Shown piece by piece: positions 22,788 through 33,253 of a DNA stretch of 36,523 nucleotides. The position numbers were made by a program, and so were the translations under genes. A model generated the notes under the pieces. The model had not been told where the DNA came from. It was given only the letters and a program-made list of their open reading frames with translations, and made no database searches. Source of the stretch: Gemmatimonadota bacterium. GTDB lineage: Bacteria; Gemmatimonadota; Gemmatimonadetes; Longimicrobiales; Gaopeijiaceae. Each line of letters opens with the position of its first letter. Within the stretch, counting starts at the first letter, position 1. The stretch spans positions 1-36,523 of the forward strand of contig JAUIKL010000014.1 of the NCBI GenBank assembly GCA_030430625.1. Direction: 5' to 3'.

Positions 22788-23666
22788 TTGAACATCAGTA
22801 CGGTAGGTGTGGTCGGTTGCGGCCTCATGGGGAGCGGGATCGCGGAGATCGCGGCCAAGAGCGGCTTTGCCGTGAAGGTCCGCGAAGTGAACGCCGACGC
22901 GCTCGCGGCCGGGGAGAAGCGGATCCGGAAGTCGATGGACCGAGCCGTGGCCAAGGAGAAGCTGTCGGCCGAGGACCGGGACGCGGCGTGGGCTCGCTTC
23001 ACCTTCACGACCGAGGTGTCCGACCTGGCCGACTGCGACCTCGTGATCGAGGCGATCGTCGAGGAGTTGGAGGCGAAGAACGAATTGTTCGTGGCGCTCG
23101 ACGAGCTGTGTGGCGAGAACACGATCTTCGCGTCGAACACCTCGTCGCTCACGATCACCGACATGGCCGCGGCCACCCAGCGCGCGGACCGTTTCGTCGG
23201 GCTTCACTTCTTCAACCCGGTTCCGGTGATGAAACTCGTCGAGGTCGTGCGGACGATCGCGACGTCGGACGAGACCTTCGACCGCGCGTTCGCGTTCGCG
23301 AAGGCCCTGGGGAAGGTCCCGATCGCGGCCAAGGACAACTCGGGCTTCGTGGTGAACCTGCTCCTCGTTCCGTACATGCTCGACGCGATCCGGCAGCTGG
23401 AGCGCGGTGTGGCCTCGGTGGCCGATATCGACACCGGGATGGCCCTCGGCTGCGGCTACCCGATGGGGCCGTTCCTTCTATGTGACTTTGTCGGCATCGA
23501 TACGCTCTACAAGATCAGCGAGATCATGTTCGACGAATACCGTGAGGAGCGGTACGCACCCCCGCCGCTCCTGAAGCGGATCGTGACGATGGGACGATAT
23601 GGCCGAAAGACAGGCATGGGCTTCTACGATTGGTCGGGCGACGAGCCGGTACCGCTTCCGATCTGA
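22788..23666 (+). CDS. 3-hydroxyacyl-CoA (3-hydroxybutyryl-CoA) dehydrogenase
   Basis: This 292-residue protein is a stand-alone NAD-dependent 3-hydroxyacyl-CoA dehydrogenase of normal length. The Rossmann motif is VGVVGCGLMGSGIAE at the N-terminus. FASNTSSLTI holds the catalytic Ser, and GLHFFNPVPVMKLVEVV holds the catalytic His (H140). The C-terminal dimerisation domain contains DNSGFVVNLLLVPYMLDAI and CGYPMGPFLLCDFVGIDT. It interconverts 3-hydroxyacyl-CoA and 3-ketoacyl-CoA, the step between the crotonase and the thiolase also encoded here. The start is TTG 22788 with GGAGG at 22777-22781. A strong hairpin lies 22 bp after the stop. Confidence 0.94.
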   Translation: MNISTVGVVGCGLMGSGIAEIAAKSGFAVKVREVNADALAAGEKRIRKSMDRAVAKEKLSAEDRDAAWARFTFTTEVSDLADCDLVIEAIVEELEAKNELFVALDELCGENTIFASNTSSLTITDMAAATQRADRFVGLHFFNPVPVMKLVEVVRTIATSDETFDRAFAFAKALGKVPIAAKDNSGFVVNLLLVPYMLDAIRQLERGVASVADIDTGMALGCGYPMGPFLLCDFVGIDTLYKISEIMFDEYREERYAPPPLLKRIVTMGRYGRKTGMGFYDWSGDEPVPLPI

Positions 23667-23687
23667 TTCGGCGGAGGTGTGTGTGGT

Positions 23688-23721
23688 GGGCCCCGATTGG
23701 CGCGGTGCGCCGTCGGGGCCC
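23688..23721 (+). terminator. GC-rich stem-loop after the dehydrogenase gene
   Basis: A perfect 9-bp stem, GGGCCCCGA (23688-23696) with TCGGGGCCC (23713-23721), encloses a 16-base loop that can itself pair CGC/GCG. The following bases ATACTCATTT are only slightly T-rich. It could be a terminator for the thiolase-dehydrogenase unit or a leader element for the AraC-type gene at 23757. Confidence 0.4.
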
Positions 23722-23756
23722 ATACTCATTTCACCCCCCATGGAGCCCTTTTCGAG

Positions 23757-24542
23757 ATGATTGTCGTACAGGCGCACGACCCGAGTCTTCGCAAAGCAGC
23801 TGTGCGCGCGGCGCACAGTGAAGAGGACGTGATCTTCGAGGGTCGGCTTCTGCAGAGTGCGCTCGAGTACGGCTTCCCACGCCTGCTGGTCCGCGAAGGT
23901 GGGCGGCGTCCGGGCTTCACCCCCGTCGACGTACCGGTCCTCGAGATCGACGACGCCAAGCGACGGCGATGGGAGAGCGAGCGGCTGTCCGAGGAACTCC
24001 CCCGGACCCGGCTCGACCATCTGACGCAGCAACTCTCGATCGAGTTCGCTCGCGTCGGGCGGGGTGACTCCTGGGCCGACCGCGCGTTGGCGGATCTGTC
24101 CAGGGCGGCCGGTGCCCGGCTGCCGGGCTCTCTCCGGTCCTTCGGGCGCCGGATCATGGAGTATCCGGTCCACTACACGACACTTTTCCCGCTCGCCACG
24201 GCGTGCGGGACGACACGGGGCGCGCTCAAGGCTCGGTTCCGACGCCGCGGCCTACCGACCCCGTCGACCTACCTCCGGTGGTTCCGGCTTCTGGCCGTGG
24301 CCGAGGTGTTGTCGAACCACGACGTCACGGTGGCGGACGCGGCGCGCCGGTGTGGCTTCACGTCGGACGGAAACCTGTGCCGAATGATGGCCAAGGTCAC
24401 CTCGATGACGCCGACGGAGGCGCGCTCGCTGCACGGGCGCCGGACGATGCTGCTGGCCTTCGTGTGGAAGCACCTGCGCGTGGACGACCTGGAGGGGTGG
24501 GCCGCGCTCGACGACATCTTCGAGCAGAACCGCGTCGCATAA
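23757..24542 (+). CDS. AraC-type transcriptional regulator
   Basis: In this 261-residue protein the DNA-binding half is at about 155-230: TYLRWFRLLAVAEVLSNHDV, then the second HTH DAARRCGFTSDGNLCRMM and SMTPTEARS, which matches the two helix-turn-helix units of AraC/XylS proteins. The N-terminal half (about 1-115) is unlike a cupin sensor. It reads as an alpha/beta fold with HSEEDVIFEGRLLQSALEYG, more like a receiver-like remnant, but no phospho-acceptor is clear. After the HTH there is an extra 35-residue tail ending in DDIFEQNRVA, which is unusual. ATG 23757 is chosen; the open frame goes further upstream through the stem-loop at 23688-23721. Its stop TAA merges with the T tract of the convergent rpsU terminator. 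Confidence 0.75.
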   Translation: MIVVQAHDPSLRKAAVRAAHSEEDVIFEGRLLQSALEYGFPRLLVREGGRRPGFTPVDVPVLEIDDAKRRRWESERLSEELPRTRLDHLTQQLSIEFARVGRGDSWADRALADLSRAAGARLPGSLRSFGRRIMEYPVHYTTLFPLATACGTTRGALKARFRRRGLPTPSTYLRWFRLLAVAEVLSNHDVTVADAARRCGFTSDGNLCRMMAKVTSMTPTEARSLHGRRTMLLAFVWKHLRVDDLEGWAALDDIFEQNRVA

Positions 24543-24573
24543 AAAAACGGCCCTCTCCGAAGAGAGGACCGTT
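24541..24573 (-). terminator. Rho-independent terminator of rpsU
   Basis: On the minus strand an 11-bp stem (one G-U pair), closed by a stable cUUCGg tetraloop, is followed by a run of seven T. It begins 23 bases after the rpsU stop. The A run of the terminator overlaps the stop codon of the convergent AraC-type gene (24540-24542). Confidence 0.92.
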
Positions 24574-24595
24574 CAGGTTCCTACGAAGCCCGGAT

Positions 24596-24799
24596 CTACC
24601 GGCGCTTCCGACGCTGACGGCGACGCTCGCGTCGGATGGCCGCTTCCCGCTTCCGCTTCCGCTGCGCACTCGGCTTCTCGTAGTAACGGCGCTTCCGCAG
24701 TTCGGAATAGAGACCGGAGCGCTGGACTTTCCGCTTGAAGCGGCGCAGCGCGCGGTCGAGGCTTTCGTTGTCCTGAACGACGACTTCCAAGACGATCAC
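24596..24799 (-). CDS. rpsU: 30S ribosomal protein S21
   Basis: This is a 67-residue, very basic protein. [20 protein letters not shown] at the N-terminus and [17 protein letters not shown] in the middle are the S21 signature, followed by the usual Arg/Lys-rich tail. S21 sits on the 30S platform near the anti-Shine-Dalgarno region and takes part in initiation. The start is GTG at 24799; AAGGG lies close upstream. A longer open frame to 24865 lacks conserved sequence. It has its own strong terminator downstream. The gene upstream on the same strand (24877-25479) ends 77 bp before, so cotranscription with it is possible. Confidence 0.93.
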
Positions 24800-24876
24800 A
24801 CCCTTGGATTGAGCAACTATTGGTGACGAGCCAGAAAAGCTAAGCACGCACGATGGGAGTGGCAACGGGTCTGCCG

Positions 24877-25479
24877 TCAGGGGAGGCGACCACCCCGGTG
24901 GAGCGTGTGGGCGTAGAGACGGTAGGTGTCCGGGCGCGCCGTGTAGTCGGCGACCCAGCTCTCGAAGTCGGGGAGGGGGAGCCGCTCCTCGATGTAGTCG
25001 ACGACCATCCGCGCGAACTGGACCCGGTCACGGCTGCGGAAGTCGATCGACGCCCCGTCGAGGATACGGTCGACGGCTCCGTCGAAGTCGTCCGGGTCGA
25101 CGAGGCAGATGAAGTGGCATACCTGATCGAGGCGGTACGACTCGTACAGGGAGCGTAGGTCCGGCGTCCGGTCCACGGATGCAGCGACACCGACTCCATC
25201 GGCTCCGGCCAACTCCGAGGACGACTCGGCCAGGAGGGTTCGGAAGCGTCCCCTGAGGTGCGGCTCGTCACCGGGCACCTTGGCGGCGGTGTGCAGCGCC
25301 GAGTCGAGGAGTCCCCGCAGGAGCGGTCGGCCGAGGCTTCGCGCCTTGTCGTGGATGGCCGTCTCCGAGGCCTCCAGGAAGATGTCCGTCGTACGGACTT
25401 CGTCGGCTTCGACCTCGCTGTGGCTCGGCCGGAAGGAGAAGTAGCCGTGCCACCGGTTCGCTTCCGAGGGGAAGGTCAC
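24877..25479 (-). CDS. Unknown protein A: RT-IF module followed by YxxYxxxQ/LPxFxxW helical module
   Basis: I do not recognise a named family. From GTG 25479 it is 200 residues. The C-terminal half (about 111-190) is a helical module with YESYRLDQ (112-119) and [11 protein letters not shown] (169-179), shared with the proteins at 26636-27193 and 27897-28235. The N-terminal half contains [10 protein letters not shown] (29-38) and GLLDSAL (56-62), which align without gaps with the C-terminal end of the 26636 protein. The start is doubtful: in-frame protein-like sequence (TATRRGDSIVTVAPRERRR, WACFLV) continues upstream to 25620, but the only possible starts there are ATT 25620 or CTG further up. 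There is no ribosome binding site at GTG 25479. A minus-strand TACAAT at 25619-25624 may be its -10 element. There is no signal or membrane segment. Confidence 0.7.
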
Positions 25480-25739
25480 GAGGAAACACGCCCACGAATC
25501 CGAGTCGGACTCGAGGAAGGCTACGGAACGTCTGCGTTCCCGGGGAGCTACGGTGACGATGGAATCTCCGCGGCGGGTGGCGGTGAAAGTGCCTGTCGTG
25601 GAAGCGGTTAGCTCAGAAATTGTATCCGTTTGGCGACAACTGCAAGACAGATGTTTCCGGTGTTGGTTTTCCTTGCTCGCCGGGTAAACAGATTGTTATC
25701 GTGAGGATCCGCCCCTCATCCCCGCGTGTGAGACGGAGC

Positions 25740-26627
25740 ATGCAACTCGACACCAGTGCGGACGCCCGCCCCGAGGCCATGGGTGACGTCCCCGGCATCT
25801 GTGAGCTCCCCATCACCCGAGCGGTCGTCCAGTACCGAGACGTCCACGAGATGGACGCCCCCGGCGGCCGGATCGAGGACATCGGCCTCGCGCTCGTGGT
25901 GGACGGGCGCTACGCCGCCACCTCCGAAGCGATCGATCTGGGCAGCGGGCGGGTGAAGGTCCTCGACCTCAGCACCGAACTCGTCGTTCTCGACTGGGTC
26001 TACGAGCCGACCGTCGACCACGTCTCCGAACTCGTGACCGCCACGGCGGCCACGGGAGACGGTGTGAGCCTGGTCCAGTACAGCCGCCGGCTCGGTCTGC
26101 GCGTGCTGGAACGTGTCGGCTTCGGTCCGCTGACGAGGCCCACCTTCCTTCGTGTCGGGTTCCGCGACATCTGTCGCGATCTCGACCTGCACGAAGGTAC
26201 GTCGATCCGGATCGTTCTCGGACCGGGGCGCCTGACCCGGGCACAGCTCGACTACGACGCGTGTGCCCTCGAGTTCAGGACCGCCTTCCGCGAGGCCGAC
26301 CCCCAGCTCGAACACGCGCTGGCGGAGGCCTTCCCGAATGCCACCCTGCGCCGTCGTGAACCGACGACGGTCGCGGACGCCATCTCCTATCATGTCCGCT
26401 TCACCCTTCCGACGACGCTGCGCGAGACGCGGACGACGCTGGCAGAGATGCGGCGCGGGCTCGGCCTGCTGATCGCCCGCTTCGAGCCCGACCGGTACGA
26501 GACGATGGCCGAGATGCTCGAGACGTTCGGAGCTCGTGAGACGCTCGGCGGCCTCCACATCCACGAATCCATCGAGGACGTGGTCGCCGTCACCGCCCCC
26601 GGTTCGATCTCCCACGCGGTCCATTGA
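25740..26627 (+). CDS. Unknown protein D, about 295 aa
   Basis: I do not recognise this protein. It is soluble and mixed alpha/beta. Features seen are ELPITRAVVQYRDVHEMDAP (near the N-terminus), LSTELVVLDWVYEPTVDHV (around 75-95), a repeated VLERVGF/FLRVGFRDI beta segment, and a helical C-terminal part with FTLPTTLRETRTTLAEMRRG and IARFEPDRYETMAEML. Coding potential is clear from third-position GC and the absence of stops. The start is ATG 25740 or ATG 25779; the frame is open to 25620 but that part is AT-rich and looks like promoter. The next gene starts by overlap (TTGA, 26624) or at ATG 26636, so D and B are one unit. Confidence 0.65.
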   Translation: MQLDTSADARPEAMGDVPGICELPITRAVVQYRDVHEMDAPGGRIEDIGLALVVDGRYAATSEAIDLGSGRVKVLDLSTELVVLDWVYEPTVDHVSELVTATAATGDGVSLVQYSRRLGLRVLERVGFGPLTRPTFLRVGFRDICRDLDLHEGTSIRIVLGPGRLTRAQLDYDACALEFRTAFREADPQLEHALAEAFPNATLRRREPTTVADAISYHVRFTLPTTLRETRTTLAEMRRGLGLLIARFEPDRYETMAEMLETFGARETLGGLHIHESIEDVVAVTAPGSISHAVH

Positions 26628-26635
26628 GTTACGCC

Positions 26636-27193
26636 ATGGACCCGCGCGTGGCGGAGGAGCTGGCTCCTTCGACCGTCGACGAGGAGCGGGCGGAGTACGA
26701 GGCGTACCGAGCCCGACAGGCGCGCGCCCTGGTGGGCATGCTCCCGAGAGAGGCCGTGAGGCCCCTCTACCGCAAGGCACTCGAGAGTGGGCTCCCCCAC
26801 TCCGAGGACGACCCTCTCGGGACGCTGGCGGCGTTCTGTGAGTCGTTCCTACCCCTCCCGACCTTCGATGTGTGGCGGAGTGACCGGCGCGCGTACCCGG
26901 ACGCCCACATGGAGGACCTCGGTGAGGCCGCCGGCGCGCCCTCCGCGGCGGAGCCGGTGACGTTGGAGGCTCGGGTGCTCGCGCGGACGCAGGGCGCGTG
27001 GACGGCCCGTCTGAGGGGATTCCGGGACGAGGACGCCTGGCGCGGCTTCATCGCGTTCGAGGACGGCCGGTCGGGCCACGTGCACCGGACGGCGCTCATC
27101 TTCCGCGAACCCGACGCGGTCGAGCTGCGATCCCGCTTCCTCAGCTTCGAGCCTGCGACCCTCGAAGCCTTCCTCAGGTCCGCGCTGCCGTAA
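26636..27193 (+). CDS. Unknown protein B: YxxYxxxQ/LPxFxxW helical module followed by RT-IF module
   Basis: This 185-residue soluble protein has no recognised family. Its N-terminal half has the helical module: YEAYRARQ (21-28) and LPTFDVWRSDRRAYP (74-88), spaced as in proteins A and C. After an Ala/Glu/Pro linker (about 95-107) the C-terminal half contains AWRGFIAFEDG (134-144), RTALIFREPD (151-160) and ends FLRSALP. The last 34 positions from RT align ungapped with protein A with 11 identities, but in A this part lies before the helical module. The start is ATG 26636; TTG 26624 overlaps the stop of D and is an alternative. It probably forms one transcript with D. Confidence 0.72.
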   Translation: MDPRVAEELAPSTVDEERAEYEAYRARQARALVGMLPREAVRPLYRKALESGLPHSEDDPLGTLAAFCESFLPLPTFDVWRSDRRAYPDAHMEDLGEAAGAPSAAEPVTLEARVLARTQGAWTARLRGFRDEDAWRGFIAFEDGRSGHVHRTALIFREPDAVELRSRFLSFEPATLEAFLRSALP

Positions 27194-27216
27194 CGGAATT
27201 TTTTTGTAAATTCCGT
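27193..27216. repeat. Perfect 9-bp inverted repeat with T-rich centre
   Basis: ACGGAATTT (27193-27201), six bases, AAATTCCGT (27208-27216), starting in the last base of the stop codon of protein B. The T run is inside the loop rather than after the stem, so it is not a standard terminator. A second dyad CCGTG-T-CACGG overlaps it at 27213-27223. It could be an operator or an mRNA 3' structure. Confidence 0.5.
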
Positions 27217-27335
27217 GTCACGGAGGTCGGTTCGGACACCTCGACGAGCCCTCCCGAAACCCGGTGTGTGGCTTGGACTTCCGCCCCTCCGGCGCCCCCC
27301 GCGGCTACGCTGCGACCCACGTCGGGAACAGTTGG

Positions 27336-27391
27336 TTTTCCGATTTTTCCGAAATCTCAAATCGTTGCGGCGCAACGACTTACGAAATCTC
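27336..27391. promoter_or_regulatory. Clustered repeats upstream of the ribbon-helix-helix gene
   Basis: The gap 27194-27571 (378 bp) has no convincing gene and is AT-richer than its surroundings. It holds a tandem TTTTCCGA (27336-27343 and 27345-27352), two copies of CGAAATCTC (27350-27358 and 27383-27391), and between those a perfect dyad CGTTGC-GGC-GCAACG (27363-27377). Farther down, TTGCGG (27423-27428), 16 bases, TAGAGT (27445-27450) is a possible promoter. Short direct repeats and dyads of this kind are typical targets of ribbon-helix-helix repressors, and such a gene lies just downstream. The operator role is inferred. Confidence 0.45.
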
Positions 27392-27571
27392 CAGATTCGG
27401 GCGATTTGGCGCACATTGACCCTTGCGGCCCCGATCCGACGGCTTTAGAGTACATGCACTTCGAGGCTGCTAGCGCCTCCTGCCGTTGGCTCCGAACCAG
27501 CTTCGCGGAGTCGGGCACCCCCCAAGGCAAAGTGTGACTTTTTCATTTCAACCGATGGGCGAGGTGTGTCT

Positions 27572-27775
27572 ATGTGGGAGACGCGTTCCGTGCAACTTTC
27601 TGTCCGGCTTCCCCGCGATATCGCGGACCAGGCCGAGGAAGTTCAGGAGCAAGATCCGGAATTCTTGAGCCGGGTCGTGCTGTACGGCCTCACGCGTCGC
27701 TCCATCTACCGGCACCTGCGGGAGAACGATCAGGAGGACTCGATCGAGCTGGACGGACTTCAGGCGACGCCGTAG
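27572..27775 (+). CDS. Ribbon-helix-helix (CopG/Arc-like) DNA-binding protein
   Basis: This 67-residue protein has a predicted strand VQLSVRLP (7-14), helix 1 DIADQAEEVQE, turn, and helix 2 DPEFLSRVVLYGLTRRSIYRHLRE, the layout of ribbon-helix-helix proteins that dimerise and put an antiparallel strand pair in the major groove. The tail is acidic. The start is ATG 27572 with GAGG at 27561-27564; a GTG at 27566 is less well placed. It is not clearly an antitoxin: no toxin-like gene overlaps it, and the next gene is 121 bp away. It may regulate its own region through the repeats at 27336-27391. Confidence 0.68.
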   Translation: MWETRSVQLSVRLPRDIADQAEEVQEQDPEFLSRVVLYGLTRRSIYRHLRENDQEDSIELDGLQATP

Positions 27776-27896
27776 TCCTTCAAAACGCTTGCGTCGACAG
27801 GCCCTTCGGCTCAAACGTAGGCGCGCATCGCACAAAGCTTTACGCGAGCGCCCCTAGAGAGTCGGGGGCTTGTTCACGTCCGGTGGAGGCACCCCG

Positions 27897-28235
27897 GTGG
27901 ACGCAGGCCAAGGAGGCTCGCAAGAGTCGCTCAACGTCCTGCGCGCGAAGTATCACGACTACTGTTCCGCGCAGGTAGCGGATCTTCTCGTCTACATGAG
28001 TCCGGACGAGATCTACCTGCTGGCGCACCGCGCGCATCGAGAGGACGGCCGTAAGGGCGACGTCTCGTATGCCGAGATGGTGCGGGTCGCGACCGAGTGG
28101 CTGGCCAAACGGGTGGCCCTACCCCCCTTCGAGGTGTGGGTGGAGGACTACCGCGCGCACCCGGAGCAGTACGAGGAGTACTTCATGGGGCTGTGGCGCG
28201 ACGAGTTGGATGCCCGATCCGAGGCCTCGGACTGA
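27897..28235 (+). CDS. Unknown protein C: stand-alone YxxYxxxQ/LPxFxxW helical module
   Basis: This 112-residue soluble, acidic, all-helical-looking protein consists almost only of the module shared with proteins A and B: YHDYCSAQ (19-26), MSPDEIYLLAHRAH, then LPPFEVWVEDYRAHPEQY (75-92). The distance from the first Tyr to the Trp is 62 residues, against 63 in A and 59 in B. The start is GTG 27897 with GGAGG at 27885-27889. It is preceded by the ribbon-helix-helix gene and is convergent with ssb, with a 27-bp gap containing the short dyad AGCCGC-GA-GCGGCT (28241-28254). No function can be assigned. Confidence 0.72.
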   Translation: MDAGQGGSQESLNVLRAKYHDYCSAQVADLLVYMSPDEIYLLAHRAHREDGRKGDVSYAEMVRVATEWLAKRVALPPFEVWVEDYRAHPEQYEEYFMGLWRDELDARSEASD

Positions 28236-28262
28236 GCCGAAGCCGCGAGCGGCTACCCCCGA

Positions 28263-28709
28263 TCAGAAGGGCAGGTCGTCGTCCGGCTCGTTCATCGACG
28301 GACCGGGGCCACCGGACGGGGCCGAAGGCGTGTAGCCGCCACCCGAACCACCGGATCCTCCGGAGCCCTGACCACCCGTGGACCCGAGCATGACCATCTC
28401 GTTGACCACGATGTCGGTCCAGTACTTCGGCCCGCCGTCGCCTTCGGTCTGCGAGTACTCGATCCGCCCTTCGACGTAGAGCCGATCTCCCTTCTTCACC
28501 CACTGCTCTACGATGTCGACGAGACGTCCGAAGAAGGTCAGGCGATGCCACTCCGTCTTGTCGCGCTGCTGACCGGAGTTCCGGTCCGTCCACGTCCGGT
28601 TCGTCGCCAGCGAGACTTTTGCCACACGTGCGCCCGAGGTGGTCGAACGGATCTCGGGGTCGTTCCCGACGTTGCCGATGAGCATGACTTTGTTGAGGGA
28701 ACGACTCAT
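28263..28709 (-). CDS. ssb: Single-stranded DNA-binding protein
   Basis: This 148-residue protein is a standard bacterial SSB. The OB fold covers residues 1-108: SLNKVMLIGNVGNDPEIRST, then DKTEWHRLTFFGRLVDIVEQ and KKGDRLYVEGRIEY. A Gly/Ser/Pro-rich flexible linker follows (about 110-138). The acidic C-terminal tip is DDDLPF, which recruits replication and repair partners. It binds single-stranded DNA as a tetramer during replication, repair and recombination. The ATG at 28709 is chosen because conserved sequence begins there. It lies convergent to protein C and divergent from the enoyl-CoA hydratase gene. Confidence 0.95.
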   Translation of the reverse strand: MSRSLNKVMLIGNVGNDPEIRSTTSGARVAKVSLATNRTWTDRNSGQQRDKTEWHRLTFFGRLVDIVEQWVKKGDRLYVEGRIEYSQTEGDGGPKYWTDIVVNEMVMLGSTGGQGSGGSGGSGGGYTPSAPSGGPGPSMNEPDDDLPF

Positions 28710-28809
28710 GTGTTGGCGACTCCAGGCCGAAGGTTCCGGGGCCGAGCGCACCACCGCGAGCGAGTGCCGGGCGGGCTCGGCAGGCCCGAAGTTACATGAG
28801 CCCTCGTCG

Positions 28810-28839
28810 TTTCACCATCGGGAAACGGGTCGCTATCTT
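28810..28839 (+). promoter_or_regulatory. Possible promoter of the enoyl-CoA hydratase gene
   Basis: TTTCAC (28810-28815), 18 bases, TATCTT (28834-28839), 45 bp before the start codon, in the 174-bp gap divergent from ssb. A short hairpin GGGTC/GACCC lies between it and the start. Moderate match to a housekeeping promoter only. Confidence 0.3.
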
Positions 28840-28883
28840 GGGTCGTCGCGGATGACCCATCACGGAGTTTGGACGGTCCGACC

Positions 28884-29669
28884 ATGGCCGATTTGGAATA
28901 CGTACGTGTCGAGTGGGACGGGGACCTCGCGGTCGTCACCGTCGATCGCCAGGAGAAGCTGAACGCGCTCAACGCCGAGGTCGTCCGGGAGATCGGGACG
29001 GTTTTCGAGGAACTCCGCACGGACGACGACGTCCGCGGTGTCATCCTCACCGGCGCGGGTGACAAAGCCTTCGTGGCGGGTGCCGACATCGGTGAACTGG
29101 CCACGATGAACTCGGTCTCGGGTGTGCAGGTCAGCCGGGACGGTCAGGACGTCTTCCGCGCCATCGAGCGATTCCCGAAGCCGGTCCTGGCGGCCGTCGG
29201 CGGCTACGCGCTCGGCGGTGGCTGCGAGTTGGCCCTGGCCTGCCACATGCGCCTGGCCAGCGAGGGTGCTCGCTTCGGCCTCCCCGAGGTCGGCCTCGGC
29301 ATCATCCCCGGATACGGCGGCACGATACGGCTGGCCCGCCTCGTCGGACTCGGTCGCGCCATCGAACTGACGCTGACCGGCGACATGGTCAAGGCGGACC
29401 GCGCCCTCGACATCGGCCTCGTCTCGGCCGTCGTGCCCCAGGAGAACCTCCTGGACGAAGCCAAGGCCTTCCTCCGGAAGGTCACGAAGAACGGCCCCGT
29501 GGCCGTCCGTATGGCGCTCGAGTCGATCTACCGCGGCCTCGACACGGCCACCGGTGAGGCCCTCGACTACGAATCGTCCCTCTTCGGCCTCCTGGCCTCG
29601 ACCGACGACATGAAGGAGGGCATGCAAGCCTTCCTGGAGAAGCGGAAGCCCGACTTCAAGGGCAGCTGA
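28884..29669 (+). CDS. Enoyl-CoA hydratase/crotonase family protein
   Basis: This 261-residue protein is a standard crotonase. The oxyanion-hole segments are AFVAGADIGEL (around 62-72) and YALGGGCELALAC (around 108-120). The two catalytic Glu of true hydratases are both present: E115 and E135 (in FGLPEVGLGIIPGYGG), 20 residues apart as in the family. It hydrates 2-enoyl-CoA to 3-hydroxyacyl-CoA, the step before the dehydrogenase and thiolase encoded earlier in the window. The start is ATG 28884. The 106-bp gap after it carries the recF upstream region. Confidence 0.92.
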   Translation: MADLEYVRVEWDGDLAVVTVDRQEKLNALNAEVVREIGTVFEELRTDDDVRGVILTGAGDKAFVAGADIGELATMNSVSGVQVSRDGQDVFRAIERFPKPVLAAVGGYALGGGCELALACHMRLASEGARFGLPEVGLGIIPGYGGTIRLARLVGLGRAIELTLTGDMVKADRALDIGLVSAVVPQENLLDEAKAFLRKVTKNGPVAVRMALESIYRGLDTATGEALDYESSLFGLLASTDDMKEGMQAFLEKRKPDFKGS

Positions 29670-29711
29670 CCTCCCGCGGGTCGAGGGGCTCGGGCGCGGG
29701 CCTCCGGAGTG

Positions 29712-29739
29712 GAATCGCAGGGGCTGAATCGTTAGATTC
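29712..29739 (+). promoter_or_regulatory. Repeat/dyad and -10-like element upstream of recF
   Basis: GAATCG occurs at 29712-29717 and 29726-29731. The second copy forms a perfect dyad GAATC-GTTA-GATTC (29726-29739) that contains TAGATT (29733-29738), a possible -10 element 38 bp before the recF start. This could be the promoter-operator of the recF-dciA-gyrB unit. Confidence 0.32.
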
Positions 29740-29775
29740 TGCTATGGTTTATGCGACTTCCCGTGCCTCCGGACC

Positions 29776-33253
<3,478 letters not shown>

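Follow-up and report, generated by a model that had tools for sequence, protein, structure and literature searches.

What kind of system is encoded by the five genes that lie between rpsU and ssb in a member of the Gemmatimonadota? The genes, here called A, D, B, the RHH-like gene (for ribbon-helix-helix) and C, occupy positions 24877–28235 of the window, by which is meant the whole stretch of 36,523 nucleotides that was analysed (GenBank assembly GCA_030430625.1, contig JAUIKL010000014.1). An initial annotation had described A, B and C as diverged paralogues with a common helical module and had suggested that the block could be a lineage-specific system. The analysis shows a gene block of two unlabelled domains, found here in Gemmatimonadota only, and profile comparison adds to the helical module a second shared domain in swapped order. 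This domain is absent from that annotation, as are the RHH–C core, a palindrome upstream of it and the upstream start of A.

A helical module common to A, B and C

The motifs YxxYxxxQ and LPxFxxWxxD are common to A, B and C at the positions where the initial annotation had placed them. YxxYxxxQ starts at residue 112 of A, 25 of B (21 from the ATG at 26636) and 28 of C (19 from the GTG at 27897), and LPxFxxWxxD at residues 169, 78 (74 from the same ATG) and 84 (75 from the same GTG), respectively, the two numberings differing solely through the start codon chosen. The reported Tyr-to-Trp spacing of 63 (A), 59 (B) and 62 (C) follows from these positions. Comparison of the three segments with phmmer returned E values of 1.3e-11 (A–C), 3.1e-7 (B–C) and 3.9e-6 (A–B) in a three-sequence database, values that would be about 1000-fold larger at genome scale. 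With orthologue profiles, hhalign gave E values of 1e-11 (A–C), 2.7e-12 (B–C) and 7.2e-15 (A–B), and the isolated modules scored 68.3, 72.6 and 90.3 for the same pairs, where 100 column shuffles of each pair reached at most 25.7, 19.8 and 19.9. The fragments L002 and L003 were omitted from the B alignment, and the C alignment omits L014 and L024, which are cut by contig ends, and contains a shortened L027. Judged from these comparisons, the helical modules are homologous, with a resemblance beyond chance.

The history of the module was approached with a tree of 47 selected modules, taken from 15 chosen loci and six distant rows. A forms one group at 98/95 and B one group at 98/96, and the two join at 86/82, in a tree for which the bootstrap is unsettled and long branches were flagged. 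C does not form a single group, and two rows from family f5 (f1, f2 and so on are labels of kinship groups) fall among C on a very long branch. Since A and B are each one group, the copies appear to be older than the spread of the sampled lineage, which supports the earlier proposal of an old family as opposed to a recent duplication.

A beta-rich domain in swapped order

The beta-rich domain at the N-terminus of A matches the C-terminal domain of B as a homologue (hhalign E 8.1e-12); the score of 65.0 compares with at most 19.3 in 100 column shuffles. Besides this pair and the module pairs, the remaining domain pairs were at noise in hhalign. It follows that the domain order is opposite, beta-helical in A and helical-beta in B. 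Gene A (24877–25557, minus strand) encodes the beta domain at approximately 25291–25527 and then the helical module at approximately 24910–25164, gene B (26636–27193, plus strand) encodes the helical module at approximately 26678–26920 and then the beta domain at 26936–27190, and gene C (27897–28235, plus strand) is the helical module alone, without the beta domain. It is possible that A and B derive from one fused ancestor in which the domain order then changed.

The gene models were adjusted at one point. The initial annotation had placed the start of gene A at 25479; because orthologues conserve a stretch upstream of that position (ERRRSV...), the start was moved about 78 bp further upstream to approximately 25557, and A is probably best read as 24877–25557, encoding 226 amino acids from a GTG codon. 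In the window B starts 8 nt past the D stop. Of 20 loci, 15 have -8 to 7 nt between the D stop and the first B residue in the alignment, an approximate figure as start codons were not called. For every one of the five genes, the ratio of non-synonymous to synonymous substitution rates (dN/dS) is 0.05–0.17 among the four closest pairs, so that all five look real and constrained.

The beta domain also occurs outside A and B. A profile of 19 rows (8 of the 23 A sequences, 10 of the 19 B sequences and one free protein) has matches in 139 of the 249 phylum genomes, and 20 further places that were examined are mostly free-standing genes, with open frames of 95–169 amino acids and one of 300. In family f7, a free-standing beta-domain gene lies 75–146 bp downstream of C in 14 of the 17 C-bearing genomes; the beta-profile search found no match in the remaining three (G120, G125 and G176). 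This adjacency connects the same two domains as the fusions in A and B. Scans of the free beta proteins tested against family libraries returned nothing convincing.

Other free-standing beta-domain genes in the family of the window (L065–L068, L074, L080, L083 and others) lie near recurring neighbours, namely an ABC transporter ATPase with an ABC-2 permease (Pfam, L066) and a TgpA-like transglutaminase (Pfam, L065). These neighbour clusters recur in 7–9 of 20 loci.

Conservation of the block and of the RHH–C pair

Related loci were collected by one contig scan across phyla, with a single C sequence as query, and profile searches were made in Gemmatimonadota only. The scan gave 27 loci, 26 of which are labelled Gemmatimonadota or its orders and one Gammaproteobacteria. 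Within this sample, in which other phyla are covered by the single-sequence C scan, the lineage-specific nature suggested earlier is true. On the Gammaproteobacteria-labelled contig (L002) lie B, RHH, C, ssb, ech and recF. The label is probably wrong, since this genome and the phylum of the window drew the same genome set.

The complete set of five genes was detected in 16 of the 27 loci, in agreement with the neighbour relationship described in the initial annotation, and the order where present is rpsU, A, D, B, RHH, C, ssb, often then ech, recF and gyrB. For RHH and C together the count is 26 of the 27. The other genes are less constant: A was undetected in L005, L007, L020 and L022, B in L013, L016, L018, L022, L025 and L027, and D in L025. 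L026 has A alone, L002 is cut by the contig end, and in L003, which is within the 16 five-gene loci, B is a 46-amino-acid fragment.

The same picture was obtained with profiles. C has matches in 93 of 249 genomes and RHH in 87, and all 87 RHH genomes also carry C. By a scripted count, RHH immediately precedes C, with no change of strand, in 84 of the 87; the exceptions are G187, where the matches overlap by 3 nt, and G098 and G234, where they lie on different contigs. The six C-profile matches without RHH were reclassed as not C, as their coordinates and two reads suggest that they are A-type proteins (G143, G222 and G051, by the neighbouring beta match) or f5 fusion proteins (G028 at L060, G129 at L059, and G171). 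With these set aside, every genome in which C was found also has an RHH-like gene. D has matches in 54 genomes, namely 53 of the 62 in the family of the window (f1) and one of f2, as counted by hand. The RHH–C pair is the widest and most stable part of the block, and A, B and D are accessory.

In the single-contig genome G075 (L052, L053) the block is split between 2.16 Mb, with rpsU, D and the helical module of B, and 2.77 Mb, with the end of the B beta domain, RHH, C, ssb, recF and gyrB, as if a rearrangement had broken B. In genome G139, C is matched strongly twice, on separate contigs (C2:43621-43941 and C27:2836-3135). In several genomes of genus g2 the C match spans one stop codon, probably through extension of the profile past the natural stop.

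Conserved DNA elements upstream of RHH and D

The RHH-like gene (27572–27775, plus strand) encodes 67 amino acids and is preceded by a 25-bp palindrome of the TAAGTCGTTG-N5-CAACGACTTA type at 27358–27382, which is operator-like and common to 27 aligned rows (the window and 26 loci). Over these rows the arms pair at 193 of 270 positions, with 93 for the next best window and a mean of 64. The genome of the window (87.4% complete) contains a single site at no more than 3 mismatches, and a reversed control gave 0. Compensatory changes beyond the column make-up were sought in the arms and rejected, and without such covariation a binding site is likelier than an RNA stem. A structured leader before RHH was set aside as unconvincing (alifold z -1.8 on 12 of 27 loci).

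The locus alignment contains further conserved elements on the plus strand. The box GGAACAnwTGGwT at 27325–27337, to which no role is assigned, lies about 20 bp before the palindrome. A promoter-like pair of the form TTGCG-N17-TA..T follows the palindrome and reads TTGCGG-N17-TAGAGT at 27423–27451 in the window, where it may serve as the promoter of RHH–C. In the divergent region between A and D, alignment of 20 loci identified a conserved TTGC-N17-TTATC at 25673–25701, a candidate promoter for D. No tRNA was found in the window, and an Rfam search of 23000–30000 gave no element, with three sub-threshold, chance-like matches.

Family assignment and structural comparisons

The initial annotation knew of no named family with this signature, and the five window proteins, the 226-amino-acid form of A included, indeed fall below every curated cut-off in Pfam and NCBIfam. 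PHROGs and PADLOC gave nothing below E 0.03 for the window proteins, and scans of orthologues against Pfam returned scattered weak matches only; among the RHH orthologues these were HTH_29 at 0.0015 in 1 of 27 and Arc, with a best E of 0.0082, in 2 of 27. A sequence search for relatives of A, D and RHH in the PDB gave a chance-like best E of 0.035. A literature search of titles and abstract openings found no published work naming these genes.

The RHH-like gene resembles the Arc/MetJ/CopG regulators in length, in a strand-helix-helix pattern recognized by eye (SVQLSVRLP and two helices) and in its upstream palindromic site. It differs from the RHH families (Pfam RHH_1 and Arc) in falling below the Pfam cut-offs and in hhalign scores that are not above shuffles.

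Gene D (25740–26627, plus strand) encodes a protein of 295 amino acids, for which a model was obtained with pLDDT 79 and pTM 0.78. The second half of the model has elements in the order a-b-b-b-a-b-b-a, the topology given for DR1245, YbjN and type III secretion chaperones in PMC3575483. Foldseek lists YbjN (6vu7), SigE (1k3s), AmyR (5fr7) and ExsC (3kxy) for D, the best match of the chaperone fold having E 0.075 and the TM-score on the target being 0.30–0.43. No match reached E<=0.001; a mitoribosome chain heads the list, in which RNA polymerase subunits L/K are placed no lower than the chaperones. D thus shares with YbjN, DR1245 and the secretion chaperones the predicted order of helices and strands and departs from them in the lack of sequence similarity, in an extra N-terminal half and in fold scores no better than those of unrelated folds. 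Sequence homology of D and YbjN was rejected, as the hhalign score of 12.7 to 13 YbjN members (a set that omitted L092 and L099) lies inside the shuffles, and D of the window is not a match to PF10722 (YbjN). Elsewhere in this genome there is a YbjN match, marginal at 22.2 bits against a cut-off of 22. On the model, D may resemble the YbjN-like fold; membership fails on sequence. Both this fold for D and the RHH fold are weakly supported.

Neither domain carries a label in the libraries that were searched, and the swapped fusion of the two is, in our judgement, unusual; a lineage-specific block of a regulator plus partner is an already known kind of arrangement. The FESNov catalogue comprises clade-specific unknown families with conserved gene context, as described in PMC10849945. 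The block is like these families in its restriction to one clade as sampled, its purifying selection and its conserved neighbours, and unlike them in its paralogous domain set and swapped domain order.

Proposed function and alternative explanations

We tentatively favour, at somewhat less than even confidence, an autoregulated pair of RHH-like protein and C that would act at the palindrome; A and B would be accessory partners made by fusion, and D a chaperone-like scaffold. The RHH-like protein would be a dimer that binds DNA at the one palindrome preceding its own promoter, with C as its protein partner, the core being an autoregulated two-protein regulator. The helical module would let A and B join the same complex, replacing C or beside it. 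The beta domain of A and B, which a related family encodes in a gene of its own beside C, could be a partner or sensing domain, and D, encoded just before B, could act as the scaffold. Speaking for this autoregulated pair are the module homology, the beta homology and fusion of A and B in both orders, the co-occurrence of RHH with C, the C–beta adjacency in f7, the palindrome and the dN/dS values; DNA binding, complex formation and an output are what we infer. With rather more reserve, the block can be pictured as an undescribed Gemmatimonadota regulatory system of RHH-like protein and C, opposite fusions A and B, and scaffold D, in which interchangeable modules might compete for one DNA-bound complex. 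The block in any case yields two unlabelled domain families and a constant gene pair that marks much of a phylum that has been little studied, and it provides a naturally occurring example of two domains that exist as separate proteins and as fusions in either order. Partner predictions are testable as a result, for RHH and C, for C and the free beta protein, and for A or B with either.

Several observations weigh against the autoregulated pair. The assignment of the RHH-like gene rests on a motif pattern, the single Pfam matches of its members include winged-helix families (HTH_29), and its hhalign score of 15.4 to 12 RHH_1 members, with L101, L103 and L112 omitted from the comparison set, is within the shuffles (maximum 17.3 of 100). 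The model of A, of moderate quality (pLDDT 73, pTM 0.48), has no fold match at E<=0.001. The palindrome lies about 210 bp upstream of RHH and before the promoter-like site, an unusual position for a simple repressor, and the arm pairing of 193 is within column shuffles (mean 188, maximum 203), with no covariation beyond column make-up. In the five f7/f9 loci L044–L048, no palindrome before RHH was picked up by an inverted-repeat scan, which failed to pick it up in many f1 loci as well. Finally, A, B and D are each missing in some genomes that keep RHH and C, and hence are not needed for the core.

The position beside ssb, often followed by recF and gyrB, raises an alternative that we regard as unlikely though deserving attention, namely a replication or repair accessory in which D would be a chaperone-like partner of the neighbouring SSB, A, B and C adaptors, and RHH merely a means of tuning expression. 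The possible analogy is with DR1245 as partner of the SSB-like DdrB in Deinococcus, and it is in keeping with the element order in the second half of the D model and with the YbjN, SigE, AmyR and ExsC entries listed by Foldseek. However, these entries rank equally with RNA polymerase subunits L/K and include none at E<=0.001, the D–YbjN comparison is at shuffle level with a marginal YbjN match elsewhere in the genome, no ssb was seen beside RHH–C in L044–L048, and D of G075 is about 0.6 Mb away from ssb. Of similarly low probability is that RHH–C, D–B and A are separate units held in place by a stable housekeeping neighbourhood. The patchy absence of A, B and D where RHH–C stays, and the conservation of the flanks themselves, fit such co-location; the sharing of domains between the units and the C–beta adjacency in f7 do not. 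The other flank raises the alternative of a link to translation, with A co-transcribed with rpsU (bS21) and the block tuning initiation. A does lie upstream of rpsU on the same strand, with about 82–164 nt from the A stop to the rpsU start in 17 of 18 loci (rpsU starts estimated from motifs, the eighteenth value being an open-reading-frame artefact), yet rpsU is in place in the four loci where A is absent and was not seen beside RHH–C in L044–L048, and we consider this link very improbable.

Equally remote, in our estimation, is descent from a chromosomally fixed toxin-antitoxin system, with RHH as the antitoxin and C as toxin or former toxin. Many type II toxin-antitoxin pairs consist of a small RHH gene, a small partner and an operator palindrome, the layout seen here, in which a small RHH-like gene is directly upstream of a small partner with an operator-like palindrome. 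The mobile, patchy distribution that is usual for such pairs, though not strictly defining, is at odds with the constant pairing (87 of 87) and constant place in f1, and with C being nearly always one per genome (G139 having two) and found neither in viral contigs by profile nor in plasmids by single sequence. PADLOC gave merely E 0.05 for A, and the RHH tail past residue 50 is variable, unlike a toxin-binding tail. A mobile origin of the block as such was rejected, with no relatives in viral contigs (C and D profiles), plasmids (C) or phages (D) in searches that did not include A, B and RHH, and a defence system was set aside as PADLOC gave no significant match.

Helical modules in longer proteins of family f5

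Family f5 contains longer proteins, L059:7469-8257 (minus strand) and L060:7024-7866 (plus strand), in which the helical module is seemingly N-terminal. By eye they are Rossmann/methyltransferase-like; Pfam gave TehB at merely 0.035 in L059 and nothing in L060. A divergent neighbour in L060 starts with MPELPEV and is MutM-like by eye, with no family call. Against the combined module profile, the L059 and L060 fusion proteins match with E values of 5e-7 and 3e-8, respectively.

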